From Mucilaginibacter sp. MD40 (lineage in GTDB: Bacteria; Bacteroidota; Bacteroidia; Sphingobacteriales; Sphingobacteriaceae): 64,000 nucleotides of DNA. The first letter of the stretch is position 1, and each line of letters starts with the position of its first letter. Both the position numbers and the translations under genes were made by a program. Where the stretch lies: assembly GCF_002288635.1 (NCBI RefSeq), contig NZ_NRSW01000001.1:1642548-1706547 (forward strand). Direction: 5' to 3'. The notes under the pieces are model-generated. The model worked only from the letters and a program-made list of their open reading frames with translations, was not told where the DNA came from and made no database searches. This document shows, piece after piece, positions 1,041 through 63,070 of the stretch.

Positions 1041-1152
1041 TATAGTTCATGGTTGATGGTTCATAGTAAAATCAACAACCTCGTATTAACATGCTCATAA
1101 TTGGTTTCAGTAAATCACTATGATCTATGAACCATCAACTATGAACTTTATA
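1041..1152. repeat. Intergenic inverted repeat with doubled word, hemC-hemB spacer
   Basis: The left arm (1041-1066) contains GTTCATGGTTGATGGTTCAT and the right arm (1125-1152) contains ATGAACCATCAACTATGAAC. Read as reverse complements the arms differ at only about three positions. Each arm holds a GGTTCAT/GGTTGAT word twice. The right arm reaches into the hemC-hemD stop codon. The same word family recurs beside miaA at 59191-59261. The unit lies between two co-directional genes, so a transcript of both would contain the hairpin. Confidence 0.8.
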
Positions 1153-2722
1153 TCCCAAACACTGCCTCGGCTAAACCTACCTCGTCTGGCGAGAAGGGGA
1201 GTACGTATTTAACGCCCATCTCATCAAACTTTTTACCGGTTGATTTGCCTATAGCTATTACTTTTTGGCCGGGCTCAAGCAGGTTATTCGCAAAATATGC
1301 GTCAACATTGCTTGGGCTGGTAAATATCATTACGTCGGCGCCGCTGGCCTCTACGTCTTCTTCTAAAACAGTTTCGTAAACGGGCAGGTCGATGATCTTG
1401 GTATCTGCAGACAAACCCTGATGAATACTTCTCATCGGGTTATCGGCACCCGGGAAAAGTACCGTTGTGCCATTTGCCAGCGCGGCAAAATCGGCGGCAA
1501 CATCAGCAGTATCGGTACTTTCGCCAACAAAATCAGCAAAGTGGCCATTCTTACGTAACATATCCTCACTACCTGCACCCATTACGCCGAATTTTACCTT
1601 CTTAGGAAATTGCGGCTGCAGTTTAAAGAAATATTCAACGGCGTTCTTACTAGTGAAGAATACCCAATCAATGTTCTTTAAAATGTAAGAATCAAAACGG
1701 GTGATCACCGGTACCGTACGTATCAACGAGCGGTCTTCTATTTCGATTTTATGTTTCTCCAGTGCCCGGCGGAAGTAGCTGGTTGCCGATATATCTCTTG
1801 ATATAAACACCTTTGAAGGGAACTTTCTGTCTTTAGCAAACTTGGCCAAAATGCGTTCGGTAACACCCTCAAGTGTTGGCGTTTCTATAAATAAACGATC
1901 AGGAAATTCATCCTCATCATCAGATTTTGAGGTGAATACCTGAAATTGTCCGTTCTCTTTACGGCAATAAACGCCCAGTGGTAAGTGGCAACCACCACCA
2001 AATTGTTTTAATACGCCCCGCTCTAAAGAAAGCTGTTCGGCCACCTCGGGGTGGTGCAATTCCTGCAGTGCATCAAATAATATTTGATTATTATCGCGAA
2101 TCTGGATAGCCAGCACACCTTGCGCAGGTGCGGGAATAAACTCCGTGGGAGTGAGTTCCTCTACGTGAAATTCGCTCAGATCGATACCTAAACGGCTAAC
2201 ACCGGCTTTGGCCAGCATAATGGCATCGTATTTCTCGTCGCGTAGTTTACCTATGCGGGTAGGTACGTTGCCGCGTAGGTCTTCTATTTCCAGATCGGGG
2301 CGCAGAGCTAATAATTGAGCCTTGCGGCGGTTGGATGAAGTACCCACGATGCCACCGTATTTAACGGAAAGCTTTTGGCGCACATCAACGCAATCCTTCA
2401 ATATCAGCAACAGTTCAGCCGGGTCTTCCCGTTCTGAAACTGCTGCGATGATGAGTCCCGGCGGATTTTCTGTAGGCAGGTCTTTATGCGAATGTACCGC
2501 GATGTCTATAGTGCCTGCCAGTAGTTCTTCTTCTAATTCTTTGGTAAAAAAGCCTTTGCCTTCCAGTTTATCCAGGCTAAGGTTAAGGATACGGTCGCCC
2601 TGTGTTTTAATGATCTTAAGTTCTGCAGGGATATGCAATGCTGCAAGTTGGTCCTTAACAAAGTTTGCCTGCCATAGTGCAAGTTCGCTTCCGCGTGTGC
2701 CGATAATTACTGTTCTGTCCAA
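1148..2722 (-). CDS. hemC: Fused hydroxymethylbilane synthase and uroporphyrinogen-III synthase
   Basis: Bifunctional heme enzyme. The N-terminal ~300 residues are porphobilinogen deaminase (HemC), which builds linear hydroxymethylbilane. The rest resembles uroporphyrinogen-III synthase (HemD), which closes the ring. Counted from a TTG at 2746, visible signs are IGTRGSELALWQ near residue 15, the catalytic Asp in HSHKDLP (D89), SSNRRKAQ at 137-144 and the dipyrromethane-cofactor Cys in GGGCHLPLG (C253). The HemD part begins near FPSKVFISRDISA and includes DWVFFTSKNAVEYF. Both possible starts are TTG: 2746 adds eight residues, while 2722 gives MDRTVIIGTRGS, which fits the family better. HemD is weakly conserved in all bacteria, so that half is called partly from position and length. 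Confidence 0.92.
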   Translation of the reverse strand: MDRTVIIGTRGSELALWQANFVKDQLAALHIPAELKIIKTQGDRILNLSLDKLEGKGFFTKELEEELLAGTIDIAVHSHKDLPTENPPGLIIAAVSEREDPAELLLILKDCVDVRQKLSVKYGGIVGTSSNRRKAQLLALRPDLEIEDLRGNVPTRIGKLRDEKYDAIMLAKAGVSRLGIDLSEFHVEELTPTEFIPAPAQGVLAIQIRDNNQILFDALQELHHPEVAEQLSLERGVLKQFGGGCHLPLGVYCRKENGQFQVFTSKSDDEDEFPDRLFIETPTLEGVTERILAKFAKDRKFPSKVFISRDISATSYFRRALEKHKIEIEDRSLIRTVPVITRFDSYILKNIDWVFFTSKNAVEYFFKLQPQFPKKVKFGVMGAGSEDMLRKNGHFADFVGESTDTADVAADFAALANGTTVLFPGADNPMRSIHQGLSADTKIIDLPVYETVLEEDVEASGADVMIFTSPSNVDAYFANNLLEPGQKVIAIGKSTGKKFDEMGVKYVLPFSPDEVGLAEAVFGI

Positions 2723-2767
2723 AAGGTTAAATTTTTTACACTGCAAATTTAAGTTTTTACAGGTAGT

Positions 2768-2826
2768 AACGTGCTATTAATTGAGGATATGAGAGTATCC
2801 TGACTATCTGATGAGTAAAGCACGTT
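2768..2826 (-). other. Nested hairpin upstream of hemC-hemD
   Basis: An outer 8-bp perfect pair (AACGTGCT at 2768-2775, AGCACGTT at 2819-2826) encloses an inner 6-bp hairpin (AGGATA at 2784-2789, TATCCT at 2796-2801). It fills the gap between the channel gene stop (2836) and the hemC-hemD start, so on the minus strand it would be a structured 5' leader of the heme operon or a weak terminator of the channel gene. No U-run follows. Confidence 0.45.
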
Positions 2827-2835
2827 GGCTTCAGG

Positions 2836-3804
2836 TTATCCTCTTGTTGCCTGCCATATAAACCAGGCGTTTAAAATGGCATAGGTGCATATGAGTATCT
2901 GTCCGCAAATAAAATCGAACCGCTGGGCGCGTTCCGCTTCGTTGCGTTTTACCAGTTTTAACGAATAGGCCGTGCAGATAATTACCGTAAGGATAAATAC
3001 CAGGGTGATACCGTGCAGCATATCTACCAGCGTAAATGAGCTGGACTCCGGCAGCGCGGAGTCAACAATGTATTTATTACCAATTACTGCGAACAAGGCA
3101 CCAACGCTTAATCCGAAGCGCGAGTCGATACTATCGGCATGGATGTAAAAACACATGTAGGCAATAAGAAAAGCCACATACATTCCCAAGAACATCTTCC
3201 AGAACAGCCCCATCGCGTCGCGATCAATAGTAAGCAGTACCTTAAAGTTGCTGTACTCGGTATGGGGTTGGGGTATTTTATCGTCGCCAAAGGCGGTTTC
3301 ATATTTTTTTATACCGGTGCTGATGTCGATACTATCTATGTTCCAGCCTCGCAGGGTAAAGCGCGGATCAAAGTGCTTGCCTAAAGTATCTGCCTTAAAT
3401 ACCAGCGCTTTGGAATCAAACTGCGAATTTTCGATAGAGAACCGTAGTTTTTGCTTGTCAAACGGGAAATTGTTGGTAGCCCAGGAGTCTTTCATTACTG
3501 CCTGTAGCTTCATCAGCATATATATGCGGTTATTGCTCGAATCGATAGTAGAGAAGGATGTAGTAACTGATTTGGCTTGTGGTACTTCCAGGTTGTGCAA
3601 AAAATCAAACTTTTTGTTCTTGTACTTAAGCCACAACCACATGTTAATGTTATATTCTTTATCCTTAAAGTTGATGTCGTGTATACTGGTAATGTATATA
3701 CCGCATTGTACGGTATCGATCGGGGCATTCTGAGCATTAGCTTTTAAGGCAGATAGAAAGCCGGCGATAAAAATCAGGATCAGGGTTTTAACTGCTTTTA
3801 ACAT
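2836..3804 (-). CDS. Pentameric ligand-gated ion channel-like membrane protein
   Basis: Looks like a prokaryotic relative of Cys-loop receptors (GLIC/ELIC type): an extracytoplasmic ligand-binding domain followed by four membrane helices. Visible features are a signal peptide (1-24), beta-strand-rich residues ~30-195 with NMWLWLKY and the family signature NFPFDKQKLRFSIENSQFD at 112-130, then M1 (~201-221), M2 (~229-248), a conserved LP at 251-252, M3 starting near D261, and M4 (~297-318). The two cysteines bracketing the Cys-loop are absent, as in other bacterial members. The start is the ATG at 3804; an adjacent TTG lies one codon upstream. The ligand and ion selectivity cannot be read from sequence. 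It is immediately upstream of hemC-hemD on the same strand, with no obvious functional link. Confidence 0.78.
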   Translation of the reverse strand: MLKAVKTLILIFIAGFLSALKANAQNAPIDTVQCGIYITSIHDINFKDKEYNINMWLWLKYKNKKFDFLHNLEVPQAKSVTTSFSTIDSSNNRIYMLMKLQAVMKDSWATNNFPFDKQKLRFSIENSQFDSKALVFKADTLGKHFDPRFTLRGWNIDSIDISTGIKKYETAFGDDKIPQPHTEYSNFKVLLTIDRDAMGLFWKMFLGMYVAFLIAYMCFYIHADSIDSRFGLSVGALFAVIGNKYIVDSALPESSSFTLVDMLHGITLVFILTVIICTAYSLKLVKRNEAERAQRFDFICGQILICTYAILNAWFIWQATRG

Positions 3805-4046
3805 CAAAAGCTATTAACGTTCAATTATAGATGTTGTTTGCAGGGTTATTTAATTTAACGAATTGTTTTTTAGGCAATTAAAAAAACAATTTAACTAATG
3901 TTTGGTTGGGTAATAATATAGCAGATACGTTACCCTGTTAAGGGGCTAAAGAGAATATTATACAACAAAGTTGTTTTTTGATCCGCGCATCATAAATCCG
4001 CGTGTGTTTTATACTCGTTAGTTATTTAAATACGAACAACAAACAC
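3805..4046. promoter_or_regulatory. Divergent intergenic region
   Basis: This 242-nt AT-rich region separates the channel gene (minus) from the XRE regulator (plus) and must hold both promoters. It contains an 11-bp AT-only inverted repeat (AATTGTTTTTT at 3861-3871, AAAAAACAATT at 3881-3891). I cannot assign a clear TAnnTTTG element for either gene. Confidence 0.4.
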
Positions 4047-4328
4047 ATGAAAACCAATTTTAGAAGCAAGGTAAACGAAATTGTCACCAACATCAGGCGG
4101 ACCCGCGAAAGGCTTAACTATACACAAGACTACCTGGCGATGCGCATGAACGTTTCACAAAACGCCTACTCAAAAATTGAGCTCGGCTATTCTAAACTCA
4201 CTCTGGCAAGGCTTATGGAAATATGTGCCATACTGGAAGTGCCTGTATCAGAAATGATAGAGCCGGGCAAACAGCAGCAGGTATACCGGTTAATTTACAA
4301 CCCGTCCCTACGTTTGCAAACCGTTTAG
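4047..4328 (+). CDS. XRE-family helix-turn-helix regulator
   Basis: Small (93 aa) single-domain DNA-binding protein. Residues ~8-65 form a Cro/C1-type helix-turn-helix: KVNEIVTNIRRTRERLNYTQ, DYLAMRMNVSQNAYSKIELG, then LTLARLMEICAILEVPVSEM. No effector or sensory domain is present. The ATG at 4047 is preferred over a GTG at 4002 that would add fifteen residues unlike the family. It stands alone between two intergenic regions and ends 18 nt before a strong hairpin. The target is unknown; an autoregulator or a stand-alone antitoxin-like regulator are both possible, and no toxin partner is adjacent. Confidence 0.85.
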   Translation: MKTNFRSKVNEIVTNIRRTRERLNYTQDYLAMRMNVSQNAYSKIELGYSKLTLARLMEICAILEVPVSEMIEPGKQQQVYRLIYNPSLRLQTV

Positions 4329-4345
4329 TTTAATTTAAGTTAATG

Positions 4346-4384
4346 ATTACAGCAATGGCCCGTTTAGCGGGCCATTGCTGTAAT
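4346..4384 (+). terminator. 17-bp perfect hairpin after XRE gene
   Basis: Perfect 17-bp stem (ATTACAGCAATGGCCCG and its complement) with a 5-nt loop TTTAG. It is placed as a terminator for the XRE gene, but no U-run follows (ATAGTATAG), so it could also be a protein-binding palindrome before the LacI gene. Confidence 0.6.
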
Positions 4385-4444
4385 ATAGTATAGTTTGTAT
4401 AAAGTATTAAATTAGCGGCACAAGAGCAAATATCCCCTTAATGC

Positions 4445-5473
4445 ATGCCCCATAATAAATTACCTACCGTAAAAGAGATAGCTAAGCGGCTAAATGTTTC
4501 CACATCAACTGTTTCGAGGGCGCTGCACAACCACCCAAGTATTGGCCTGGTTACTACCATGCGGGTACATAAAGTAGCCCAGGAACTGGGCTACGAAATA
4601 AACAAGACGGCTATTTTTTTTAAAGAACGTAAAACCTATACTATTGGGGTGATAATTCCCGACCTGGCCGAACCTTTTTTTTCGTCGGCTTTAACCGGCA
4701 TTGAAGATGCTGCGGAAACGTCTCGTTACAATGTGATCATAGGGCAATCGCTAAATAGCTTTGAGCGCGAAAAAAGGATAGTGGCCAACATGAAGGACCA
4801 CAGGGTTGATGGTATACTGGTATCCATTACCAAAGAAACATCAACCTACGAACATTTTGAGCAGTTGCATAAGTTTAATATCCCTGTAGTTTTTTTTGAC
4901 CGTGTGCCCAATCGGCAGGATATCAATTACGTAGCCTGTAACCTGGTATCGGGTATGTTGCAGGCAGTAGCTAAACTGGTAGCAAAAGGGTACAGGCGTA
5001 TAGGCCTTATCAATGGTCCGGCAAAACTTGCCGCCACACTTCAGCGCCTGCAGATCTATCTTAACTGCCTCAGGCAAAATGGGCTGGAGATTGATCAGGA
5101 TATCATTGTTTCTACCACGTTGAGCAAAGCCGATAACTTAACGGCCATGAATAGGTTACTCGTGCTTGAACAGCCGCCAGAAGCTGTAATTACTTTTAAT
5201 GATCATGTTTTGCTGGATTGTATGGCGGCCGTAACCAACGCAGGCCTTGAGGTAAATAAGGATATCAGTTTTGTAAGTTTCGCTAATCTGCCTGTTTGGG
5301 AGTATATGGATAAGAAGCCGTTGGCTTCTATTGAACAGTTCGCTTACAAGCAGGCTTCAACAGCTGCCGGCTTCCTGTTTAAGCTGATAGATCACTCGGC
5401 ACAACCTGATGCTCCCGAGATGCCACCATTGCAATGTATAATTGATTCAGAAATGGTTGAATATTCTCAATAG
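4445..5473 (+). CDS. LacI-family transcriptional regulator
   Basis: Sugar-responsive repressor or activator of 342 aa, the normal length. Residues 6-55 are the LacI helix-turn-helix and hinge (PTVKEIAKRLNVSTSTVSRA, then ELGYEINKTA). Residues ~62-335 are a periplasmic-binding-protein-like effector domain (TIGVIIPDLAEPFFSSALTG, VDGILVSITKE, RIGLINGP). It is followed by a kinase-like gene and a GH109 gene on the same strand, which suggests it controls their use of an N-acetylated hexosamine. A candidate operator lies at 5520-5533 in the gap before the kinase gene. Confidence 0.92.
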   Translation: MPHNKLPTVKEIAKRLNVSTSTVSRALHNHPSIGLVTTMRVHKVAQELGYEINKTAIFFKERKTYTIGVIIPDLAEPFFSSALTGIEDAAETSRYNVIIGQSLNSFEREKRIVANMKDHRVDGILVSITKETSTYEHFEQLHKFNIPVVFFDRVPNRQDINYVACNLVSGMLQAVAKLVAKGYRRIGLINGPAKLAATLQRLQIYLNCLRQNGLEIDQDIIVSTTLSKADNLTAMNRLLVLEQPPEAVITFNDHVLLDCMAAVTNAGLEVNKDISFVSFANLPVWEYMDKKPLASIEQFAYKQASTAAGFLFKLIDHSAQPDAPEMPPLQCIIDSEMVEYSQ

Positions 5474-5519
5474 TTATATTTAAAAAAGTAAAATTTACAC
5501 ATACGGTTGCGTAACCTCT

Positions 5520-5533
5520 TGCAAACGTATGCA
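5520..5533. promoter_or_regulatory. Candidate LacI-type operator
   Basis: TGCAAACGTATGCA is a 14-nt near-palindrome (12 of 14 positions symmetric) with the central CG step and A/T flanks typical of LacI/GalR operators. It lies 131 nt before the kinase-like gene and 46 nt after the LacI-family gene. Confidence 0.5.
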
Positions 5534-5663
5534 CAAACTATTCGTATACCCGTTTTTGCCGGCATATTTTCCCAAGCCGGTAATTAATGCCATTTTTACT
5601 ATGCAATAGCAGGATTCGCGCCTGCCGGTAAACTATACTTTTAAATATATTGCGTAAAATAGC

Positions 5664-6788
5664 ATGCCGCATAAGCCCGGGAATATAGCAGAGGTAGTAT
5701 CAAACTTTAAATGTAATGCTGATAGCAGCTGGTTTAAAGCGTATGGCTCCGGCCATATTAATGATACCTTCTTTTTGAAAAATTTGTCGGTCGGCGGTCC
5801 TCATTATTTATTGCAACGCATTAACCACCATATCTTTCCAAGAGTAGATCAACTGATGCATAACATGCACCGGGTAATAACGCATTTAAAGCAAAAGGTT
5901 GAGGCTGCCGGGGGCGATCCGTTTAAAGAAGCCTTAACACTCATTCCCACGCATACCAACCAGTATTATTATCAGGATAGTATGGGCAGCTATTGGCGTA
6001 TGCTGTATTTTTTGGATGGTGCCCGCAGTTACGATATTGTTACTACTAATAGGCAGGCTTTTGAAGGGGGCAAGGCTTTCGGGAAATTCCAGGCTATGCT
6101 GGCGGATCTCCAGGCAAGTGAATTGTATGAGGTAATACCTGAGTTTCATAATATCAGGCATCGTTTGTCGCAGCTTAACCATGCTATCGCTAAAGGTACA
6201 CCGGAAAGGCTAAAGCAGGTATCGCCAGAGCTGGAAGTGGTTAGGCAATACGCTATGGAAATGCAATACTTTCAGCAGCCTGGGCAGGTGGCCGCGTTAC
6301 CTCAAAGGGTGATACATAACGATACCAAGTTTAACAATGTATTACTCAACAGCCGCGACGAGGCGCAATGTGTGATTGACCTGGAAACCGTGATGCCCGG
6401 GTATGTAGCTTATGATTTTGGCGACGCGATACGCACCATTATTAATAAAGCGGCCGAAGATGAGGCCGATTTAGAAAATATACAGCTGAATATGCCTTTG
6501 TTTGAAGCCTACACCAAAGGTTACCTCAAAGAAGCCGCGGGCTTTTTAACCGAAGCGGAGGTTCTGTCGCTTATTAAAGGAGTTTTATTACTTCCCTTTT
6601 TACAGTCGGTAAGGTTTCTTACCGACCACATTAACGGTGATATTTATTACAAAATACATTTTGAGGGGCATAACCTGCAAAGGGCAAGGGCACAGTTCAG
6701 GTTGTTTCAGCTGCTACATGGCAATGCCGATGTGTTGCACCAGATCATTTTAAACGAATATATAAAATGCAAGGGCCTGCTACGCTAA
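5664..6788 (+). CDS. N-acetylhexosamine 1-kinase-like phosphotransferase (aminoglycoside phosphotransferase fold)
   Basis: Probable sugar 1-kinase of the NahK-like branch of the APH/choline-kinase fold. In that branch the enzyme phosphorylates GlcNAc or GalNAc at C1. Visible motifs are YGSGHINDTF (27-36), LLQRINHHIFP (49-59), the catalytic loop VIHNDTKFNN (216-225, Asp220 as likely base) and the metal-binding VIDLETVMPGYVAYDFGDAI (D239, E241). At 374 aa it has the family length. The substrate is inferred from family likeness and from the neighbouring GH109 enzyme, which would release GalNAc. It could instead act on another hexosamine or amino-sugar derivative. Confidence 0.8.
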   Translation: MPHKPGNIAEVVSNFKCNADSSWFKAYGSGHINDTFFLKNLSVGGPHYLLQRINHHIFPRVDQLMHNMHRVITHLKQKVEAAGGDPFKEALTLIPTHTNQYYYQDSMGSYWRMLYFLDGARSYDIVTTNRQAFEGGKAFGKFQAMLADLQASELYEVIPEFHNIRHRLSQLNHAIAKGTPERLKQVSPELEVVRQYAMEMQYFQQPGQVAALPQRVIHNDTKFNNVLLNSRDEAQCVIDLETVMPGYVAYDFGDAIRTIINKAAEDEADLENIQLNMPLFEAYTKGYLKEAAGFLTEAEVLSLIKGVLLLPFLQSVRFLTDHINGDIYYKIHFEGHNLQRARAQFRLFQLLHGNADVLHQIILNEYIKCKGLLR

Positions 6789-6844
6789 TAGCCGTTGGTC
6801 ATTGCCAAAGAGCACAAATCCATAACCGATAAAAATATGTTTTT

Positions 6845-8194
6845 ATGAATAGAAGAGATTTTGTTAAGCAAAGCGCCATAGGCGTTGCAGGGTTAACCGT
6901 AATACCGTCAGGAACTTTATTTGCCAGAAATGCAGATAAGGTAAGGTTGGGATACATTGGCGTGGGCCTGCGCGGTCGCAGCCATATTAGCGAAGGTTTG
7001 TTGCGAGATGATGTAGAAATAGTAGCCATTTGCGATATACAGGAAAGCTCACTTAAATATTGTCGCCAGCAATTTGTAAAAGTGAATAAAAAACTGCCTG
7101 CCGAATACACCGGCGGTTTAGACGCCTATAAAAGACTGCTAGAGCGTAAAGATATTGACGCGGTGATTATTGCAACCCCATGGCAGTTTCATAAAAGCCA
7201 GGCTATTGATGCTATGCGTGCGGGCAAATATGTAGGCTGCGAGGTAATTGCCGGTATTTCTCTGGAGGACCACTGGGATATCTTAAAAGCGCACGAAGAA
7301 ACCAAAATGCCTTACATGACACTGGAGAACGTTTGCTACCGCCGCGATGTAATGGCCGTTTTAAATATGGTTCGCCAAAACCTGTTTGGCGAGTTGGTGC
7401 ATTGTGAAGGTGGTTACCAGCACGATCTGCGCGGTATTTTATTTAATGATGGCAAAAGCTTCTACGGCAAGGGCGGCGAATACGGCCCTAACACCATGGG
7501 CGAATCGCAATGGCGCACGCAATGGAACATTAACCGTGATGGCGATATTTACCCAACGCACGGCGCAGGCCCGGTAATGCACTATCTGGATATTAACCAT
7601 GGTAACCGTTTTACTAACCTTGTTTCGTTTTCAAGCAAGTCGGTTGGTTTAAACCAATATATTGAGAAAGTATCGCCCGGAAATAAGAACGCTAAGATCA
7701 AGTTCAGGAACGGCGATGTTACCACCACCATGATCAATTGTGCCAATGGCGAAACGGTGATGTTGAGCCATGATGTGCATTTGCCGCGCCCATATTCGCT
7801 GGGCTTCCGTGTACAGGGTACCGGCGGTATCTGGATGGATGTGGCCAACTCTATTTATATTGAAGGAAAATCAGCGCAAGAGGATGTTTGGGATAAGGCT
7901 GATGCATGGCTGGAAAAATACGATCACCCGCTTTGGAAAAAGAACGAACACCTGGCAGAGGGTGCGGGTCATGGCGGTATGGACTGGTTTGTATTTAACG
8001 CGTTTGTAATGGCTGTTAAGGAACGGAGGCAAACCCCGATAGATGTTTACGACTCATTAACGATGAGCGTGATCACCCCGCTTTCAGAAAAATCCTTAAA
8101 AGAAGGTAATACGCCGCAACAATTCCCTGATTTTACCCGAGGTAAATGGAAGCAGAGTAAAAATACTTTCGCTTTGGATGATAGCGGGTTTTAA
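6845..8194 (+). CDS. GH109 family alpha-N-acetylgalactosaminidase-like protein (Gfo/Idh/MocA fold)
   Basis: NAD-dependent glycosidase of family GH109, which cleaves alpha-linked GalNAc by an oxidation-elimination mechanism. A twin-arginine export signal (NRRDFVKQSAIGVAG at 2-16) predicts export of the folded protein with its bound cofactor. The Rossmann motif is IGVGLRGRSH (38-47). ENVCYRRDVM (161-170), GGYQHDLRG (189-197) and YPTHGAGP (236-243) match the GH109 active-site blocks; E161, Y191, Y236 and H239 appear to be the functional residues. Length is 449 aa. It follows the kinase-like gene after a 56-nt gap, which fits a release-then-phosphorylate route. A plain Gfo/Idh/MocA oxidoreductase is the alternative. 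Confidence 0.85.
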   Translation: MNRRDFVKQSAIGVAGLTVIPSGTLFARNADKVRLGYIGVGLRGRSHISEGLLRDDVEIVAICDIQESSLKYCRQQFVKVNKKLPAEYTGGLDAYKRLLERKDIDAVIIATPWQFHKSQAIDAMRAGKYVGCEVIAGISLEDHWDILKAHEETKMPYMTLENVCYRRDVMAVLNMVRQNLFGELVHCEGGYQHDLRGILFNDGKSFYGKGGEYGPNTMGESQWRTQWNINRDGDIYPTHGAGPVMHYLDINHGNRFTNLVSFSSKSVGLNQYIEKVSPGNKNAKIKFRNGDVTTTMINCANGETVMLSHDVHLPRPYSLGFRVQGTGGIWMDVANSIYIEGKSAQEDVWDKADAWLEKYDHPLWKKNEHLAEGAGHGGMDWFVFNAFVMAVKERRQTPIDVYDSLTMSVITPLSEKSLKEGNTPQQFPDFTRGKWKQSKNTFALDDSGF

Positions 8195-8302
8195 GTAAAG
8201 TTGCAGGCATAAGTTATGCCGGTTTAAACATGTTATTACGAGTATTCGATGGATATCGAAAAGCGTGACAATCCCACACCCAGCTTAAGTTTTGCTAACT
8301 AT

Positions 8303-8328
8303 GAGATTGCTTCGTTCCTCGCAATGAC
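8303..8328. repeat. Possible dispersed palindromic repeat fragment
   Basis: Between the GH109 gene and the AraC gene (8195-8374) lies GAGATTGCTTCG followed by TTCCTCGCAATGAC. It is partly self-complementary (ATTGC with GCAAT) and resembles a short element that I recall as repeated in many unrelated bacterial genomes. Nothing else in that gap is recognisable. Confidence 0.5.
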
Positions 8329-8374
8329 ATGTTTTCTTAGTCTCTTATGCTAATTTCCTTGCGGATATAAGGTG

Positions 8375-9253: not shown

Positions 9254-9329
9254 TCCAATCATTCCCGTGGGTTTGCCATTGATGCCGGCTGCTTTTGACC
9301 GTTTCTTTGTCTTAAGCAAAACGCACATT

Positions 9330-10046: not shown

Positions 10047-10052
10047 GAAATC

Positions 10053-10080
10053 TACGTTAAGCTTATTTCAGCTTAACGTA
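10053..10080. terminator. Bidirectional terminator between convergent genes
   Basis: Perfect 11-bp stem TACGTTAAGCT (10053-10063) and AGCTTAACGTA (10070-10080) with a 6-nt loop. It lies between the flavoprotein gene and the convergent lipoprotein gene, and its right arm encodes the last residues of the lipoprotein. Confidence 0.65.
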
Positions 10081-10533: not shown

Positions 10534-10604
10534 GAGATGGAGGTTTGTTGATTTAATACGAATATAAGTGCAATAATAATAAATGCAAGCATGTTAACCT
10601 TACT

Positions 10605-28137: not shown

Positions 28138-28195
28138 ATTTCGGATTTCATATTTCCAGCGCGTTTAAGCAAATCTGAAAATCCGAAATCCGAAA
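28138..28195. repeat. Intergenic inverted repeat with doubled word, tRNA-Gln to prs
   Basis: Left arm 28138-28159 contains TTTCGGATTTCATATTTCCA; right arm 28175-28195 contains GAAAATCCGAAATCCGAAAC. The word CCGAAA occurs twice in the right arm. It matches the architecture of the other doubled-word repeats and lies between tRNA-Gln and prs. Confidence 0.65.
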
Positions 28196-40079: not shown

Positions 40080-40144
40080 CTGTTTATTTCGGAGATATGT
40101 TGCTTAGCTTCCAATTGAGCAGTATAAATCCGAAATATAACAAT

Positions 40145-40232: not shown

Positions 40233-40299
40233 CAGTATGCAGTTTCCGGTTTACAGTAAGCAGTTTAGCTGCCAACTGTTAACGGGGAACTGCTAACTG
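40233..40299. repeat. Inverted repeat in the tRNA-Tyr to tRNA-Gly spacer
   Basis: Arms 40233-40258 and 40274-40299 match at about 20 of 26 positions as reverse complements. The word is CAGTTNGCAGTT. The next spacer (40392-40456) uses a related word, although the tRNAs differ. Confidence 0.7.
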
Positions 40300-40391: not shown

Positions 40392-40456
40392 GCAGTTGGC
40401 AATTAGCAGTTGGCGGTCGTTTTTTAAAGAACCGCAAACTGTGTATTACAAACTGC
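40392..40456. repeat. Inverted repeat in the tRNA-Gly to tRNA-Thr spacer
   Basis: The left arm (40392-40421) has GCAGTTGGC twice; the right arm (40430-40456) reads AACCGCAAACTG and later ACAAACTGC, the complement with small gaps. Confidence 0.7.
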
Positions 40457-42759: not shown

Positions 42760-42871
42760 GATTAGTTATTAGTGATCAGAGATTAGTTCTCTTCATCATA
42801 ATTAATTCAAAAATATAAATAAGAGAGTGATTGTACTGATTAACTGATCACTGGTTAACCAATCACTACTC
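42760..42871. repeat. Inverted repeat in the nusG-rplK spacer
   Basis: The left arm (42760-42793) carries GATTAGTT twice around GTGATCAG. The right arm (42821-42871) is its gapped complement with CTGATCAC and CCAATCACT. It lies inside the secE-nusG-rplK transcript, not at its end. Confidence 0.65.
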
Positions 42872-42936
42872 ACAAAATCTTAAATGTTACTTAGCTTCCA
42901 CTTACTAACATTGAGTTATAATAAAGTAAATTAAAA

Positions 42937-49078: not shown

Positions 49079-49167
49079 AAAGTTGTAAGGTTTGAATGTT
49101 GTAAGGTTAACACCACATCATTTGAGCCTTACAACATTTCAACTTTACAACGTTCCAACCTTTCAAC
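49079..49167. repeat. Inverted repeat in the rpoB-rpoC spacer
   Basis: The left arm (49079-49110) has GTTGTAAGG twice; the right arm (49126-49167) is a gapped complement (CCTTACAACATTTCAACTTT and more). Lies within the rpoBC transcript. Confidence 0.7.
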
Positions 49168-53479: not shown

Positions 53480-53494
53480 TCAGGTTTTTTTGAA

Positions 53495-53502
53495 TATTTT
53501 TG
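53495..53502 (+). promoter_or_regulatory. -7 element overlapping the rpoC terminator
   Basis: TATTTTTG matches TAnnTTTG, 44 nt before the DUF3467 ATG. Its last base is the first base of the terminator stem. Confidence 0.5.
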
Positions 53503-53540
53503 CAAAGCCTTCTATGAAAATGGAAGGCTTTGCTATTTTT
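53502..53540 (+). terminator. rpoC terminator
   Basis: Perfect 11-bp stem GCAAAGCCTTC (53502-53512) / GAAGGCTTTGC (53523-53533), 10-nt loop, then TATTTTT. Confidence 0.85.
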
Positions 53541-53546
53541 ACTACT

Positions 53547-53858: not shown

Positions 53859-53965
53859 TTAGTTGATTAAGTGATTGGTTAATTAGTTGATTAGGTTTGT
53901 CTTCGCGCAGAAGTTATGGTGCGGCTACCTAATGACTCAATGACTCAATGACTCAATGACCAATC
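53859..53965. repeat. Inverted repeat with AATGACTC tandem, DUF3467 to fcl
   Basis: The left part is GATTAAGTGATTGG...GTTGATTAGGT. The right part (53927-53965) is ACCTAATGACTC with AATGACTC repeated three times, complementary with G-T pairs. GTTGATTAGGT is shared with the element at 62998-63070. Confidence 0.6.
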
Positions 53966-53967
53966 AA

Positions 53968-54900: not shown

Positions 54901-54902
54901 TA

Positions 54903-55769: not shown

Positions 55770-55803
55770 CCAAACAAAGTAATTAATAACTCATTTACAG
55801 CGC

Positions 55804-56664
55804 ATGAAAGGTATCATATTAGCAGGCGGATCGGGTACAAGGCTTTATCCCATTACAAAGGCCATAAGTAAGCAGTTAATGCCTATTTACGATAAGCCGA
55901 TGATTTACTACCCGCTATCGGTGTTGATGCTGGCGGGCATCAGTGAGATATTGATTATTACCACACCCGAGGATAATGCCGGTTTTAAGCGGCTTTTAGG
56001 TACCGGTGAAGAGCTTGGCTGCAGGTTTGAGTATGCCGTACAGGAGCAGCCCAACGGTCTTGCGCAGGCCTTTGTAATAGGGGCCGATTTTGTTGGAAAA
56101 GATAAAGTAGCTTTGGTCTTAGGCGATAATATTTTTTACGGTTCGGGTTTTAGTAAACTGATACAAAGCTTTAATAATGTTGATGGCGCCGCCATATTTG
56201 CCTACCCCGTTGCCGATCCGGAGCGGTATGGTGTGGTGGAATTTGATAAGGGTAACAAAGCCATATCTATCGAAGAAAAACCATTGAAGCCAAAATCTAA
56301 ATTCGCGGTACCGGGCCTGTATTTTTATGACAACAGCGTTATTGAAATAGCTAAGAACATTGCTCCATCTCCAAGAGGTGAATACGAAATAACCGATGTG
56401 AACAAAGTTTACCTGGAGCAAGGTAAACTGCAGGTAGGTGTAATGGACCGCGGAACAGCTTGGCTGGACACCGGTACTTTTGACTCACTAAGCGATGCTA
56501 CCGAATTTGTAAGGGTAATTGAAAAACGGCAGTCCAAAAAAATTGGGTGTATAGAAGAGGTAGCTTATTTAATGGGCTATATCAATGCATCTCAATTAGC
56601 TATTCTTGCTGATAAATATAGCAAAAGCGGCTACGGACAATACCTAAAAAACCTGCTTAGCTAA
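55804..56664 (+). CDS. rfbA: Glucose-1-phosphate thymidylyltransferase
   Basis: 286 aa; first step to dTDP-sugars. [46 protein letters not shown], and the C-terminal [18 protein letters not shown]. Completes a fcl-rfbD-rfbA unit supplying two deoxysugars, presumably for LPS or capsule. Confidence 0.97.
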
Positions 56665-56675
56665 GCAGGTTTTTT
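56646..56675 (+). terminator. Terminator overlapping rfbA stop
   Basis: A perfect 30-nt palindrome AAAAAACCTGCTTAG/complement that includes the rfbA stop TAA and ends in TTTTTT. Confidence 0.85.
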
Positions 56676-56696
56676 AGTAAATATAGTAGCTATATA

Positions 56697-58199
56697 TTAA
56701 GCGTGCTGTGGTGTAAACAAACTTTCACCTTGCAACGATTTATCAATCATATTTTTGGTAATGCGTTGTACCTTCTCTTTATCGGCACCGGCCATTCCAC
56801 GTTTGCTGCACCAGTCTGTAGTGGCTGCGTTTACAACGGTGCCTGAAGTAGGTGTTTTTCTAAATACAATAAATGTACCTAAACCGTTGGTCGCTTTTTC
56901 AGGGCCTTCAACGCCACCGTTAACCGCGAAATCGTAACCAAGAAGTTCTATTTTATCAAATTTTAGTTTCGAATTATCAATCACCGGTATTTCTTTTGAA
57001 CCGGGCATGATCATTTTTACTACCGGCGCACCGTCATATTCAACAGTAGGGATCTTTAATATATCACCATTCTTTAAGCCTGTACCTTCAAACAATGGCG
57101 ATTTATCGTTTACTATTTTATAACCGTCTTGCCTGTTGGTTAGTTTAGAGCCATACCCGCCGCCGCTAAAATCGGCACCTATGCTCGAGGTAATAGGATA
57201 TTTAAGAAAATCAGTTTCCCACAAAATGGAGCTGTAAGGCGTGTCTTTCAGAGGATCCAGATTATTATCTTTATAACAGATCATCAGGTTATCCTTCTTG
57301 TTATACCTCACTTGCCAGTACATGGTATTGCCGGATAACACCAGCATGTTTTTACCACTGGCAACAAATTTATCCACGTTTTCACGTGCTGCCCTTGTCC
57401 AGTACTCGCTGTGGCCAACTATCATCAGCAATTTCGACTTTTGGATATTGTTATAATCGTCCAGGTCGGCGTCAGTAATGTAATTTGCATTATAATTCTG
57501 GGTAAGCATCCAAAAGAAAAAGCTCGATGTAAAGTCTTTACGACCTACCAAGCCATCCTGGTATCTCAGATAAGACGAAACGGTTGCCCTGTTTCCCAGA
57601 TCGGGGTCATATGCGCTTTTGCCACCGCCGTAATTGTAGGCGTTATCGGTATTGGTAGGATAAACAATGGTAATATCATACGGGTTTTCGTTATCTGATA
57701 TCACAAAGTAATTAGTACCTCTGAAACGATATACACCCGGCTTAAGCGTATCAGGCAACTTAAATTCGCCGGTTTTCTCGAACTTACAGCCGTCTAACCA
57801 GGGCTTTTCGGTATTTACCTTTTGTACTTTTACAGCTGTGGTATAAGAGGCGTGTATTTTACCATTGAAATCACTTAAAGTAATTATCTGCTTCGGGTTG
57901 TCAGGTCCAGAATAATACAAGGTTATCATATCCCCGGCTTTATAAGAAAGCTTATCGGTGTAGCCGTAAAGGGTTTTACTAAAATCAGTCCCTTTGATAA
58001 GGTTAGGGCCTAACTCTGTAGTGGAATACAAACTTTGGTCATAAACCTTTGGCGGAATGTCGGGATTGGTTGAACCGGTATTTACAGTGTTGCCGGGTTT
58101 GGGTGTAGTGGTAATGATCTCGCTTTTCTTGCATCCAACGAGCACAAGCAAAGCAGAGGCAGATCCTATAAAGGATCGTCTATTAATAGTAGGGGGCAT
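56697..58199 (-). CDS. N,N-dimethylformamidase beta-subunit-like lipoprotein
   Basis: 500 aa. NRRSFIGSASALLVLVGCKK has a twin-arginine pair and a lipobox (LVGC, Cys23), suggesting Tat export and lipidation. The body matches the C-terminal region of dimethylformamidase large subunits: IVGHSEYWTRAARENVDKFV, ASGKNMLVLSGNTMYWQVRY and LLGYDFAVNGG. Small-subunit partner is absent and the substrate is unknown. It is convergent with rfbA. Confidence 0.78.
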   Translation of the reverse strand: MPPTINRRSFIGSASALLVLVGCKKSEIITTTPKPGNTVNTGSTNPDIPPKVYDQSLYSTTELGPNLIKGTDFSKTLYGYTDKLSYKAGDMITLYYSGPDNPKQIITLSDFNGKIHASYTTAVKVQKVNTEKPWLDGCKFEKTGEFKLPDTLKPGVYRFRGTNYFVISDNENPYDITIVYPTNTDNAYNYGGGKSAYDPDLGNRATVSSYLRYQDGLVGRKDFTSSFFFWMLTQNYNANYITDADLDDYNNIQKSKLLMIVGHSEYWTRAARENVDKFVASGKNMLVLSGNTMYWQVRYNKKDNLMICYKDNNLDPLKDTPYSSILWETDFLKYPITSSIGADFSGGGYGSKLTNRQDGYKIVNDKSPLFEGTGLKNGDILKIPTVEYDGAPVVKMIMPGSKEIPVIDNSKLKFDKIELLGYDFAVNGGVEGPEKATNGLGTFIVFRKTPTSGTVVNAATTDWCSKRGMAGADKEKVQRITKNMIDKSLQGESLFTPQHA

Positions 58200-58282
58200 T
58201 TTATTATTATTTAATAACTGATGCTAAAATAGCAATAAGTCATTAATTTTAAATCGCAACTATCTTAAATTTATATTAATTT

Positions 58283-59191
58283 TCAGTTAGTTACAACTTT
58301 TTTCTCTGCAAAAGATATTATTTCAGCAGCGTTTAGCCAATTAAGTTCATTATCCTTCCTAAACCAGGTTAGCTGTCGCTTGGCAAAACGCCTTGTATTC
58401 TGTTTAATTTTGTCAATAGCATCGTTAAGGCTAACCTTACCATCCAGGTAATCAAATAGTTCTACATAGCCAACCGTATTGAGCGCGCCATAATGCCTTA
58501 GCGAATAAAGCTTTTCCACTTCGGGTAAAAGCCCCTCCTGCATCATGACATCCACCCTCATGTTTATCCTGTTATAAAGTTCTTCGCGAGGCAAATCAAT
58601 ACCTATTTTAATGGTGTCAAAACCGCGTTGGTTTTTAGTGCCGGTTAAATAGCTTGACATAGGCTTACCGGTGGCTTCATATATCTCGAGCGCACGTATA
58701 ACCCTTTGCGGGTTGTTAATATCTACCGTATGGTAATAGTCAGGATCAACCAGTTTAAGCTTTTGCTGTAGTTCGGCAATGCCATTAACTGCCAGCTCAG
58801 TATTTAACCGGTCGCGTATGTCAGTATTGGCTGCGGGCAGGTCATCAAAACCTTCCGTTACGGCTTTAATGTATAACCCCGACCCACCTACCATAATTAC
58901 AACTTTGTAAGTTTTAAATAATTGTTCTAAAAGCGCCAGGCATTCGCGTTCGTAATCTCCAACCGAGTAAGGTTCAGTAACACTTAGCGTATCTATAAAA
59001 TAGTGGGGGGCGGCGGCAAGCTCGGTTGTGGTGGGCTTAGCCGTACCGATGGACATTTCACGGAAAAACTGCCTGGAATCGGCCGATACGATAACCGTAT
59101 TGTAATGCTGTGCCAGTTGTATGGCAGCCGCTGTTTTTCCGGATGCTGTAGGGCCGGTAATTACTATTAAAGTAGGGTTGGTAGCGTTCAT
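58283..59191 (-). CDS. miaA: tRNA dimethylallyltransferase
   Basis: 302 aa. Adds isopentenyl to A37 of tRNAs reading UNN codons. P-loop GPTASGKT (13-20), VSADSRQFFREMSIGTAKPT, and VGGSGLYIKAVTEGFDDLP. It ends the minus-strand run from dapD. Confidence 0.97.
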   Translation of the reverse strand: MNATNPTLIVITGPTASGKTAAAIQLAQHYNTVIVSADSRQFFREMSIGTAKPTTTELAAAPHYFIDTLSVTEPYSVGDYERECLALLEQLFKTYKVVIMVGGSGLYIKAVTEGFDDLPAANTDIRDRLNTELAVNGIAELQQKLKLVDPDYYHTVDINNPQRVIRALEIYEATGKPMSSYLTGTKNQRGFDTIKIGIDLPREELYNRINMRVDVMMQEGLLPEVEKLYSLRHYGALNTVGYVELFDYLDGKVSLNDAIDKIKQNTRRFAKRQLTWFRKDNELNWLNAAEIISFAEKKVVTN

Positions 59192-59261
59192 AGATAGAAA
59201 ATGGTTTATAGTTCATGGTTCATAGGTTCTTTGCCATGAACTATGAACCACCAACTATCTA
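59191..59261. repeat. Inverted repeat beside miaA
   Basis: Left arm 59191-59219 with TTTATAGTTCATGG; right arm 59234-59261 with CCATGAACTATGAACC. It fills the gap between miaA and the acidic-tail gene. The words match those at 1041-1152. Confidence 0.75.
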
Positions 59262-59265
59262 CTAA

Positions 59266-59931
59266 TTAATAATCGTCACTGCGTCCGGAACGGCGATCGT
59301 CCTCCTCAAAATTATCATCGTCGCCAAAGCCGAACTCATCTTCTTCAGTCTCTTCTTCCTCGTGTTCATCATCACTACCGCTAAGGTGTTTAGGAGTACT
59401 CTCATCGGCATCGGTTACTTCAGAGAAATCTTCAGCATCTTCAGGGTTAAATTGCATTTCGTTCAAAAAGTCGAAGTCCTCATCAGCAGATGATACCACC
59501 GTTGGGTTAAACACGTTGCCAAATTGCTTTGGCGCTTCGCCAACAGAGCGCACTACGTTAGGATAGGTTACAGCCGGATCCTCGTCCAGAATGATTTTCA
59601 TCAGCTCGACATGAAAGTCAAACGGGCGGTCGAAATTAAAGGTGTAGTAAAATTTCTGATGAGGATCGTCAATATAGTTGCTTAGTTTTGCTTTCTCCAT
59701 CAGCGGGATGTTGCGATCAATCCTTTTTTGATTGGGCATGTAAGTAATCTCATCACCCTTCATCCATTGGTCGTTACTTACGTAGAACGATGATGGATAT
59801 TCGGATTTGTATCCTGTAGACTGATGGATAGCTTTATGAAGATCTTCAAAAGTTTGGTTGGATTTAATATCGATATCCCTCGAAACATCATCGTAATCTT
59901 CAAAAGTAACCCTGAACCTGTATAGTGCCAT
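59266..59931 (-). CDS. pRiA4b ORF3-like protein with acidic tail
   Basis: 221 aa. Residues ~1-125 (LYRFRVTFEDYDDVSRDIDI, TFEDLHKAIHQSTGY, PSSFYVSNDQWMKGDE) match the PRiA4_ORF3-like family, named from a plasmid gene but common on chromosomes. The C-terminal ~50 residues are rich in Glu and Asp and likely disordered. Function unknown; context between cca and miaA may hint at tRNA or RNA work. Confidence 0.75.
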   Translation of the reverse strand: MALYRFRVTFEDYDDVSRDIDIKSNQTFEDLHKAIHQSTGYKSEYPSSFYVSNDQWMKGDEITYMPNQKRIDRNIPLMEKAKLSNYIDDPHQKFYYTFNFDRPFDFHVELMKIILDEDPAVTYPNVVRSVGEAPKQFGNVFNPTVVSSADEDFDFLNEMQFNPEDAEDFSEVTDADESTPKHLSGSDDEHEEEETEEDEFGFGDDDNFEEDDRRSGRSDDY

Positions 59932-59983
59932 TGTGTTTATTTAAGTATAATTTTATCAGAAAAATATTTTATTTAATTAAAAT

Positions 59984-61390
59984 TCAGTTTGCCACAACTT
60001 TCAAGCCAATTTCTTTTCCTTTTTCGATAGTGTATTTTATCGCTGCTTCGCGGTCGTTAGGAATTTCCCCTTCCAGAATAGCCTCGCGTATCTTGTTTTT
60101 GATAATGCCAACTTCGCGGCCCTCACTTATGCCAAATAGTTGCATAATATCCAGGCCGGTTACCGGCGGCTGCCAATTGCGTATGTTATCGCGTTCTTCC
60201 ACATCTTTGAGCTTTTGTTGTACCAGCTCAAAATTCTGACGGTATTTTTTTACTTTATATTCGTTTTTTGTGGTTACGTCGGCCTTGCATAACAGCATGA
60301 GTGCCTCAATATCGTCACCTGCCTCAAAAAGCAGACGGCGTACGGCAGAATCTGTTACCACTGATTGCGATAATACAATAGGGCGCAGGTGCAGTTGTAC
60401 CAGTTTTTGCACAAACTTCATTTTTTCATTCAAAGGAAGTTTGAGTTGTGTGAAAATTTTAGGTACCATGCGGGCGCCTTTGTCCTCGTGGCCATGAAAC
60501 GTCCAGCCGTGGCCTTGCTCAAAGCGTTTGGTGGCGGGTTTGGCAATATCATGCAATATAGCGGCCCAGCGCAGCCAAAGGTCGCCGGTAGTTTCACAAA
60601 TATTATCCAGTACCTGTAGCGTATGGTAAAAGTTGTCTTTGTGCCCCTTACCGTTGATCACCTCCACGCCATACAATGCAGCCATTTGCGGGAAGATGAT
60701 ATGCAGCAGGCCGGTATCAAATAAATAGTTAAACCCCACGGAAGGTAGTGGCGACAGGATGATCTTATTCAGTTCATCCGTAATGCGTTCCTGCGATACG
60801 ATCTTTATCCGCTGTAAGTTACTTTTTATAGCTGCAACGGCCTCATCATCTATCCTGAAACCCAGCTGTGAGGCAAAACGTATGGCCCGCATCATGCGTA
60901 ATGGGTCGTCTGAGAATGTTTCTACCGGGTTAAGCGGTGTACGCATCAGTTTATTGTTCAGATCTGTAATGCCCTCAAAAGGATCTATTAATTCCCCGTA
61001 ATTATCAGGATGCAACGATATGGCCAGCGCGTTAATGGTAAAATCGCGGCGTTTCTGGTCGTCTTCGAGCGTGCCATTCTCTACAATTGGTTTGCGCGAA
61101 TCAGAACGGTAGCTTTCTTTACGGGCACCAACAAACTCCACCTCCACATCCTGGTAGCGCAGCATAGCCGTCCCGAAGTTCTTGAAAACCGACACTTTAA
61201 CGTTGAGGCTTGCCGCAACCGCTTCGGCAAATTCAATACCGTTACCCAATACAACTACGTCAATATCTTTTGATGGCCTGTTCAGGAAAATATCGCGCAC
61301 GTAACCGCCAATTGCGAAAGCCTGTACATTTTTTTCGGCAGCAAGTTTAGAAATAACAGAAAATACCGGATGTTGCAGGTGTTGTTTCAT
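59984..61390 (-). CDS. cca: CCA tRNA nucleotidyltransferase
   Basis: 468 aa. Adds or repairs the 3' CCA, needed because none of the six tRNA genes here encodes it. Nucleotidyltransferase core [20 protein letters not shown] (GG28, D42, D44), [12 protein letters not shown], head/body [11 protein letters not shown] and an HD domain [14 protein letters not shown] 61390 is chosen ([10 protein letters not shown]); a longer frame overlaps tsaC. Confidence 0.96.
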
Positions 61391-61445
61391 AGTGTAGGCT
61401 GCGAACAGGCTCGTATTGGCAGAGGCAAATTTAATATTATAATTT

Positions 61446-62012
61446 TTAACGGCGTATAAATTCAAATGTGCCGTTTGGAGCCAGCCGCATAATGGTCGAT
61501 GGCTTTTTTATTTCAGTAAGGTGCTGATCAACGTCTACCACGTAATCAACCCCATCTATTATATCCTGTGATATTTTACCAAAATACTCCGGTGAAGGCT
61601 CCCCACTGATATTGGCCGAAGTGCTAACCAGAGGTTTGCGCAGGCGTTGTATCAGTTGCTGGCAAAAGGGGTGGCTGGTTACCCTAATACCCACACTGCC
61701 ATCATCAGAAATAAGTGCAGCAGGGAGGTTTTTGGCACCCGGCATTACCAGCGTAAGCGGATTTTCCGCGTATTCTATCAATGTGTAAGCAATGTCAGGT
61801 ACTTCCTGTATGTAGCTTTGCAATTTGTTGTCTACATCAACCAGAATAATCATGCTTTTGCTTTCCTCACGTTGTTTAAGCGCGAAGATCCGTTTAATGG
61901 CATCGGTATTGGTAGCATCGCAGCCTATACCCCAGATAGTATCGGTAGGGTAGAGGATGATACCGCCCTCCTGTACTATCTTCAGCGCTTTATTAACTTC
62001 GTCTTTAAGCAT
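61446..62012 (-). CDS. tsaC: L-threonylcarbamoyladenylate synthase (Sua5/YciO/YrdC)
   Basis: 188 aa; makes the threonylcarbamoyl-AMP for t6A37 of ANN-decoding tRNAs. [49 protein letters not shown] and [12 protein letters not shown]. Its start overlaps the GT9 gene end by 8 nt, so translational coupling is likely. Confidence 0.95.
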
Positions 62013-62991
62013 AATTAAGGTACAAACTTAAGGCTTTTATTATTTTTTTCTCATCAAGCATTTCCATACACTTCGGGATGCCATATAATTTGCAGGTATT
62101 ACGTACACACGGTTCGCATGGCAATTCACCGTAACGTATGACCTGCAGATTAGTTTTATTATAAGGCGCCGTATTCCGTTCATCTCCCGCTCCAAAAAGA
62201 ACAATAGTTGGTGTGTCTACCGCATTAGCCAGATGCGCAGGCCCAGAATCCGTTGTCAGTACCGCTTTAGCGCCGGCCATCAGTTCTGCCAATCCTTTTA
62301 AATTAGTTTTACCGGCTTGGTTATGTAAGCGGTTCGGGTTGTTGGTTTCTTTAAGTAGTTCATCAATATAAGGGGCTTCTTTAGGAGAACCAACAAACAC
62401 GAAGTCCAAATTTGTAAAATGTGCCGTAAGCGCATTAATAATACTTCGGCCTTTATCAACCGGAATACGGCGGGATGAAGCTTCGGAGTTAAAGTTAATA
62501 ATTACTTTATTACTGGTGTCTTGGGATGCAGCAGCTTTTAAGTCTACATTTCGGTGTAGCACGGGTTTGTTAGTTACCGCTTCCAGTAAACAGATATATT
62601 CATCAACCCGGTGCAGGCCAACAGGCTTCTTAACTGATGTAGTCAGTAAGAATACGCCGCCTTCTTTACGGAACCCAACACGTTGTTTGGCGCTGCTTGC
62701 CCATGCCATTACAAATGACGAAAGCGAATGCGGCAGGTTAAAGTAAATATCGTAGCGCTCAGGTTTAAGCGATTTACCGAAACGATAAACGCCCTTTAAT
62801 CCGGGATGATCTTGTTTTGAAAATGAATAGACTTTATTGATGCCTGGGATGAGTTCGGCAATGCCCGTTAATTCTTTTTTGATGATTACATCAATTGTGG
62901 CATCACGGTATTCGGCTTTAACGGCATTAACAAAGGCGGTAGCCATTACCACATCGCCAAGCCAGTTAGGAAGCCGAATGAGTATTTTCAT
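62005..62991 (-). CDS. Glycosyltransferase family 9 (heptosyltransferase-like)
   Basis: 328 aa. ILIRLPNWLGDVVMATAFVN and TDSGPAHLANAVDTPTIVLF are GT9/ADP-heptose-LPS heptosyltransferase blocks; the C-terminal part has a four-Cys cluster GELPCEPCVRNTCKLYGIPKC. Transfers a heptose-like sugar to LPS core or a related glycan. The sugar is inferred. Confidence 0.9.
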   Translation of the reverse strand: MKILIRLPNWLGDVVMATAFVNAVKAEYRDATIDVIIKKELTGIAELIPGINKVYSFSKQDHPGLKGVYRFGKSLKPERYDIYFNLPHSLSSFVMAWASSAKQRVGFRKEGGVFLLTTSVKKPVGLHRVDEYICLLEAVTNKPVLHRNVDLKAAASQDTSNKVIINFNSEASSRRIPVDKGRSIINALTAHFTNLDFVFVGSPKEAPYIDELLKETNNPNRLHNQAGKTNLKGLAELMAGAKAVLTTDSGPAHLANAVDTPTIVLFGAGDERNTAPYNKTNLQVIRYGELPCEPCVRNTCKLYGIPKCMEMLDEKKIIKALSLYLNYA

Positions 62992-62997
62992 GATTAA

Positions 62998-63070
62998 GTT
63001 GATTAAGTGAATAGTTGATTAGGTGAGTCGTTGTAAAAGAAAAACAACTCACCTAATCAACTTAATCAAC
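62998..63070. repeat. Inverted repeat beside GT9 gene
   Basis: Left arm 62998-63034 holds GTTGATTAAG and GTTGATTAGGTGAG; right arm 63044-63070 holds CTCACCTAATCAACTTAATC. The arms match except for two short insertions. It fills the 86-nt gap to dapD and shares GTTGATTAGGT with 53859-53965. Confidence 0.8.

Follow-up and report, generated by a model that had tools for sequence, protein, structure and literature searches.

Introduction

Two described kinds of bacterial repeat stand close to the sequences reported here. The repetitive extragenic palindromic (REP) sequences and bacterial interspersed mosaic elements (BIMEs) of enterobacteria, the former tied to the REP-associated tyrosine transposase (RAYT), are dispersed palindromes that have been reported as exonuclease barriers and, according to the account of Liang et al. 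2015 in PMC12306157, E. coli REPs stall ribosomes when they lie no more than 15 nt from a stop codon. Among long simple repeats, on the other side, heptanucleotides are the most abundant class in many bacterial genomes, polymerase slippage having been proposed for them (Mrazek et al. 2007, as related in PMC4679880). Here we describe intergenic hairpins in a 64-kb stretch of the Mucilaginibacter sp. MD40 chromosome (hereafter the window; G000:C1:1642548-1706547 of a 4.29-Mb genome) that combine features of both, each arm repeating a 7-nt word, or less often one of 8 nt, in degenerate tandem copies over approximately 15–38 bp.

An earlier note on this DNA, made from the sequence alone, had pointed out nine inverted repeats with a short word doubled in each arm. 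The analysis adds to it the regular 7/8-nt period, the placement directly past gene 3' ends and the swapping of one word for another. The reading we favour, to which we give about an even chance of being right, is that of intercistronic RNA hairpins selected for fold and place and not for sequence, the arms being rewritten by a repeat-prone local process.

Results

Repeat period and placement in the genome

Genome-wide counts were made on 2.04 Mb of the genome, with genes called by a purpose-written small Markov gene finder whose stops are reliable and whose starts are less so. An array was scored where a 42-nt stretch reached at least 60% identity at lag 7, a threshold set in this analysis, and dinucleotide-shuffled spacers served as controls. 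Lag-7 arrays were found in 57 of 757 co-directional spacers against 3.3 after shuffling, in 11 of 138 convergent spacers against 1.7, in 5 of 221 divergent spacers against 2.3, and in a single one of 3958 coding stretches. Among co-directional spacers, lags 3 to 6 gave at most 5, whereas lag 8 gave 18 and lag 14 gave 62. No lag-7 array was present in 100 kb of E. coli, which holds 30 non-divergent spacers. The comparison with shuffled spacers, set beforehand as the test on which the proposed family could fail, thus speaks for it, and further copies indeed occur throughout the genome and the genus.

The period belongs to a particular set of hairpins. In a 1.66-Mb subset, 39 co-directional spacers, against 3.7 shuffled, had hairpin arms reaching 50% identity or more at lag 7, and 39 of the 57 co-directional arrays pair inside a hairpin. 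Arms of hairpins lying within 16 nt of a stop codon gave z = 14.1 at lag 7 and z = 10.6 at lag 14, with no positive peak at any other lag in the range 2–15, and hairpins away from stops gave little or no lag signal. Raw stem counts on spacers separated observed from shuffled weakly; hairpins as such are frequent in ordinary spacers too, and the ungapped inverted-repeat detector pools those described here with terminators. The lag analysis was decisive, and it is the repeat period together with placement, not the hairpin alone, that makes the heptad class distinct.

In co-directional spacers the heptad hairpin starts at a median of 5 nt past the stop codon, with 36 of 44 beginning within 16 nt of it. 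It often fills the spacer and, in several convergent spacers, extends from stop to stop. The 5' arm is C-poor (9.8% C, 24.8% G). About ten interlinked words account for the arms (GAATCAA/GAGTCAA, GTTCATA/GTCCATA, GATTAGA/GTGATTA, GGTAAAA/GCTAAAA, GTCAAAA, GATTTTA, GTATCAA, GTTGGCA and GTAGTGA), and a GCAGTTT type can be aligned over the full hairpin at 72–82% in 64 of 101 genomes of the genus, in many copies per genome and at gene ends.

Persistence at rpoB-rpoC and other sites

Comparisons between genera and within the genus were made on loci of approximately 24 kb around rpoC. A hairpin near the rpoB stop was found in all 32 Mucilaginibacter spacers between rpoB and rpoC. These hairpins belong to eight word families, labelled by eye, and the rpoC tree (36 rows, including four Pedobacter) shows no fewer than 16 changes of family. 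This agrees with the earlier description of a shared architecture with varying sequence. Similar word hairpins stand at rpoB-rpoC in Pedobacter relatives, and shorter ordinary hairpins or none in Sphingobacterium and more distant Bacteroidota. Around rpoC, Mucilaginibacter gives a strong lag-7/8 signal; Pedobacter has the signal too, Chitinophaga shows it weakly and Sphingobacterium does not show it. The spacers between the DUF3467 gene and the epimerase gene, between nusG and rplK, and between tRNAs likewise keep the position of the hairpin and change its word.

Replacement between two close genomes

Swaps, gains and losses, and substitutions were analysed in one close genome pair, our genome and the metagenome-assembled genome of Mucilaginibacter sp. 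44-25 (G039, rpoC locus L053), whose identity with ours is 96.2% in the 24 kb surrounding rpoC and about 93% across 680 kb. In 351 orthologous spacers, those with heptads were mostly either 95–100% identical or replaced: identity fell below 70% in 12 of 38 heptad spacers (array definition) versus 25 of 248 other non-divergent spacers (Fisher p = 0.0009). The replaced spacers, about a third, often carry a hairpin of a new word between intact flanks, as at 2186162, where AAGANNC here faces GCAGTTT in the relative. Identity of the swap flanks was 0.93 versus 0.98 within about 60 nt and normal further out. The 474 non-divergent orthologous junctions include a single clear case in which one genome has a hairpin-bearing spacer and the other does not (88 nt at 1593995), and array copy number differs at 1970622 and 2046430.

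No near-identical full-length copy of a swapped allele was found elsewhere in either genome, the best full-length matches reaching 73–81%; over all heptad spacers, the best non-self match of at least 60 nt in the own genome was 91%. Copying of existing hairpins was therefore rejected as the source of the swaps, there being no near-identical donors. Import of orthologous alleles from diverged species in long tracts was rejected on the flanks, normal beyond 60 nt and slightly lowered closer in, and excision followed by re-insertion on the rarity of empty sites. As a separate observation, a palindromic repeat CCTCTCCAAAGGAGAGGA...CCCTCTCCTTTGGAGAGGG (at about 1599562, 1782247 and 2188496, with orthologues in the relative) explains several spacer-length differences between the two genomes.

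The earlier note had offered a spreading element or a selected RNA feature, and these data lean to the latter, the hairpins being swapped in place with almost no gain or loss and no near-identical donors. A spreading component retains support from word families dispersed through the genus, such as GCAGTTT with its many copies at gene ends. The hairpins might be small non-autonomous mobile elements, similar to REPs or to miniature inverted-repeat transposable elements, that insert directly past gene ends, their diversification having produced the word families and the fold being their own recombination substrate with no function for the host. Besides GCAGTTT, the single clean 88-nt presence/absence fits such an origin, as do the hairpins of about 80 nt in the tRNA spacers here, where many distant Bacteroidota have spacers of 2–11 nt. 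Against it stand the modest similarity of the best matches given above and replacement far commoner than gain or loss; by eye, with no systematic test made, no target-site duplication was noticed. Moreover, the only Y1_Tnp/RAYT gene of the genome (L264, G000:C1:1309337-1309678) has several copies of its own classical REP, CCGTCCCATGAATGGGACGGCAATGAA, on its flanks; these are unrelated to the heptad words, and identity of the hairpins with a RAYT/REP system was rejected on this ground. We hold the mobile origin to be rather doubtful.

Probable selection on the fold

The 26 unswapped heptad hairpins yielded 34 substitutions on one side of a pair, of which 20 kept a standard pair, against 13.1 expected from the spacer substitution spectrum (p = 0.013). 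The controls gave no such excess, either in other hairpins (42 of 119 against 38.8) or in divergent spacers (15 of 47 against 13.7). Substitution per site was 2.8% in the arms versus 5.8% at unpaired bases inside them. Within the rpoB-rpoC families, 92–97% of cells are paired, and pairs changed on both sides, the covariation that the note had suggested looking for, numbered 3, 4, 2, 6 and 0 in five families, against means of 0.1–0.8 and maxima of 1–4 in column-shuffled controls. Evidence for selection on the fold, from one genome pair and small alignments, is moderate. Since most of the kept changes are of G-U type, RNA is the likelier target of that selection rather than DNA. The pairing-preserving substitutions, with the in-operon positions, support the original proposal of RNA structures inside messages.

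The excess of G-U-type changes also argues against a purely mutational product, in which 7-nt slippage and snap-back template switching would remake hairpins in unconstrained spacers and the structure would be unselected. Heptanucleotide slippage as proposed in the literature (PMC4679880) would supply the raw material, and the copy number changes at 1970622 and 2046430 agree with it. The hairpins, however, sit only a few nt from gene ends, are missing from divergent spacers at the counts reported above and are retained at rpoB-rpoC in all 32 cases, which is not what unconstrained spacers would give, and we consider this explanation unlikely.

The nine hairpins of the window

All nine spans named in the earlier note fold, as it had claimed, with z from -3.6 to -8.8 (200 dinucleotide shuffles per span) except 53859-53965 (z = -1.8), and their longest quasi-continuous stems measure 16–35 bp. 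The doubled word is real at most loci and is properly a regular period: the strongest self-match is at lag 7 in four of them (1041, 40233, 40392, 59191) and at lag 8 in three (49079, 53859, 62998), is mixed at 42760 (lag 4 highest, lag 7 0.49) and weak at 28138 (lag 8, 0.47). Each span begins 0–12 nt past the 3' end of the preceding gene, that is, six stop codons (hemC-D-like gene, nusG, rpoB, DUF3467 gene, PRiA4_ORF3-like gene and dapD) and three tRNAs (Gln, Tyr, Gly). The note had placed six of the nine between co-directional genes; the orientation holds, and the number rises to nine of nine once tRNAs are counted.

Four hairpins lie on the reverse strand. The one between the hemC-hemD-like gene (stop at 1148) and hemB (988–1147) is made of GTTCATAG/GTTGATGG heptads, with a stem of 23 bp and a loop of about 58; sp. 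44-25 has a hairpin of the GTCCATAG type in its place. That at 28138–28195, 7 nt past tRNA-Gln, has a 20-bp stem and a weak word repeat. The hairpin between the PRiA4_ORF3-like gene and miaA (59191–59261) has GTTCATAG heptads and a stem of 24–25 bp, and is near-identical in sp. 44-25. The one between dapD and a glycosyltransferase-9 gene (62998–63070) is built of GTTGATTA words of period 8, its inner stem having 16 bp in one run.

On the forward strand, the tRNA-Tyr/tRNA-Gly spacer (40233–40299) carries GCAGTTT heptads in a stem of about 26–29 bp, the word being TTAGTGA in M. rigui and M. glaciei, and the tRNA-Gly/tRNA-Thr spacer (40392–40456) carries GCAGTTG heptads, replaced by the GGTTCATT word in M. 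pankratovii and M. glaciei. The nusG-rplK hairpin (42760–42871) begins 1 nt past the nusG stop and has GATTAGT words, a 26-bp stem and a loop of 47; the rpoB-rpoC hairpin (49079–49167) has GTTGTAAGG words of period 8 and also a 26-bp stem. Between the DUF3467-gene stop and the epimerase start (53859–53965), the 5' arm is made of GTTGATTA and the 3' arm of (CAATGACT)n, versus a GTCCATGG hairpin in sp. 44-25.

Other elements were seen near these sites. The tRNA-Thr/tRNA-Tyr spacer (40081–40144, forward strand) holds a conserved 25-bp hairpin of the TGTTTATTTCGG...AAATCAACA type that contains AGCTTCC, has no clear heptads and is similar in several relatives. Past the nusG-rplK hairpin, a conserved leader AAATGTTACTTAGCTTCCACTTACTAACATTGAGT (42872–42936), with a GCTTCC core found across many Bacteroidota, lies directly upstream of rplK; it probably serves the L11 operon as its autoregulatory ribosomal-protein leader, and Rfam gave no report for it at the gathering threshold. 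In Pedobacter, nusG-rplK spacers (e.g. L062-L065, L111) contain a promoter-like palindrome GGACTGCAAGATTATCCATATCTTTGCAGTCC with the Bacteroidota TTTGC promoter element. In the rpoB-rpoC spacers of three species (L016, L018, L050), an inner hairpin followed by TTTGTTAACTT..ACGTGCAA lies within the outer word hairpin and is perhaps a nested element. A short dispersed repeat at 8299–8340 has copies 86–100% identical, often as inverted pairs, in three other Mucilaginibacter genomes.

Discussion

Repeated exchange of the sequence for an unrelated one, with the hairpin kept in place, suggests that what counts is the fold and not the particular letters. In the favoured reading of hairpins selected for fold and place, the arms would arise and be rewritten by a repeat-prone local DNA process, for instance slippage by about 7 nt combined with fold-back template switching. 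The narrower proposition, that selection sees the duplex and its position alone and that the local process swaps in hairpins from a limited 7/8-nt vocabulary, is put forward tentatively; if true, it would define a class of RNA elements that renews itself by means of a generator of its own.

Several observations weigh against the favoured reading. Eighteen of the 57 co-directional arrays lie outside any hairpin, and most co-directional spacers have no heptad hairpin, which is thus not a general requirement. The nusG-rplK spacer, with other words in other species, has no hairpin in several Pedobacter/Arcticibacter. The pairing test consists of 34 substitutions from one genome pair, and the covariation sets hold 3–7 sequences each, with a clear excess only in GTTGTAA (6 against a maximum of 2) and TTATTGA (4 against a maximum of 1). 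The dispersed word families, finally, fit a mobile element as well.

As for a role, the sequence-free duplex in the transcript would act as punctuation where two coding or tRNA units meet, being a site of RNase III-type cleavage or a roadblock to 3' exonucleases, and would so separate or stabilise parts of a common transcript. Stem length, about 20–38 bp in most, is compatible with an RNase III substrate, and either mechanism, cleavage or roadblock, suits the tRNA spacers, in which there is no terminating ribosome. Judging from sequence, RNA processing or a 3'-end barrier is the likely function.

Translational control of the REP kind, in which a hairpin no more than 15 nt past the stop codon would stall the terminating ribosome and lower upstream expression, draws on the closeness of most co-directional hairpins to stops and on the E. 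coli precedent reported in PMC12306157. It would suit protein genes and not the tRNA spacers, where the same hairpins follow untranslated genes, and we judge it quite improbable. Rho-independent termination, whose conserved role the earlier note had already doubted, was rejected on the few U-tracts (7 of 43 co-directional heptad hairpins versus 21 of 83 other convergent hairpins), with a minority that could terminate, and so was an all-frame translational stop, under which one stop per word would suffice to close every frame, 7 being 1 mod 3 (stops in all frames within 75 nt in 56% of heptad spacers versus 58% shuffled).

Comparison with known systems

No description of such a family in Sphingobacteriaceae was found in the open-access full-text literature, which is no proof of absence, and Rfam covariance models at the gathering score matched only tRNAs in the window, leaving the heptad hairpins unmatched. 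An element with persistent fold and place and wholesale swaps of sequence would indeed escape both homology searches and covariance models.

With the REP/BIME elements the heptad hairpins share a palindromic, dispersed and extragenic nature and a position at gene 3' ends, in some cases within 15 nt of the stop, and not between divergent promoters (57/757, 11/138 and 5/221 for co-directional, convergent and divergent spacers). REPs, however, have a conserved sequence tied to the RAYT transposase, whereas the heptad hairpins lack sequence conservation, have arms of tandem 7/8-nt words and swap families at orthologous sites. The heptanucleotide repeats, namely the long simple sequence repeats of Mrazek, the short tandemly repeated repetitive sequences of cyanobacteria and the TAACTGA repeat of Beggiatoaceae, are likewise intergenic tandem 7-nt units with lineage-specific words, and peaks at lags 7 and 14 over background at lags 3–6 place our arrays, some with period 8, beside them. 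Those repeats are direct, and TAACTGA lies mostly just upstream of start codons; here, in contrast, the units are degenerate and make up the two arms of a hairpin that directly follows a gene, more than two thirds of the co-directional arrays (39/57) having an inverted partner.

Intercistronic RNase III or mRNA-stabilising hairpins are also long, largely sequence-independent duplexes between cotranscribed genes, but no repeat construction or family swapping is known for them, and cleavage of the hairpins described here is putative. Integron attC sites are hairpins of similar length past stop codons, with the fold conserved and not the sequence, and with 7-nt boxes. Unlike them, the rpoB-rpoC site holds no gene cassettes, and many word families are without GTT...AAC boxes; by inspection, RYYYAAC/GTTRRRY boxes do not occur in families such as AAGAATC, GGTAAAA and GATTAGA, and the hairpins stand in core operons such as rpoB-rpoC, no integrase search having been made.

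Set beside these systems, the heptad hairpins offer a natural experiment on why 7-nt units dominate bacterial tandem repeats and on whether hairpins placed between cistrons at gene ends have a function as punctuation. With its many family replacements and no loss seen in 32 Mucilaginibacter genomes, the rpoB-rpoC spacer is a ready test case.

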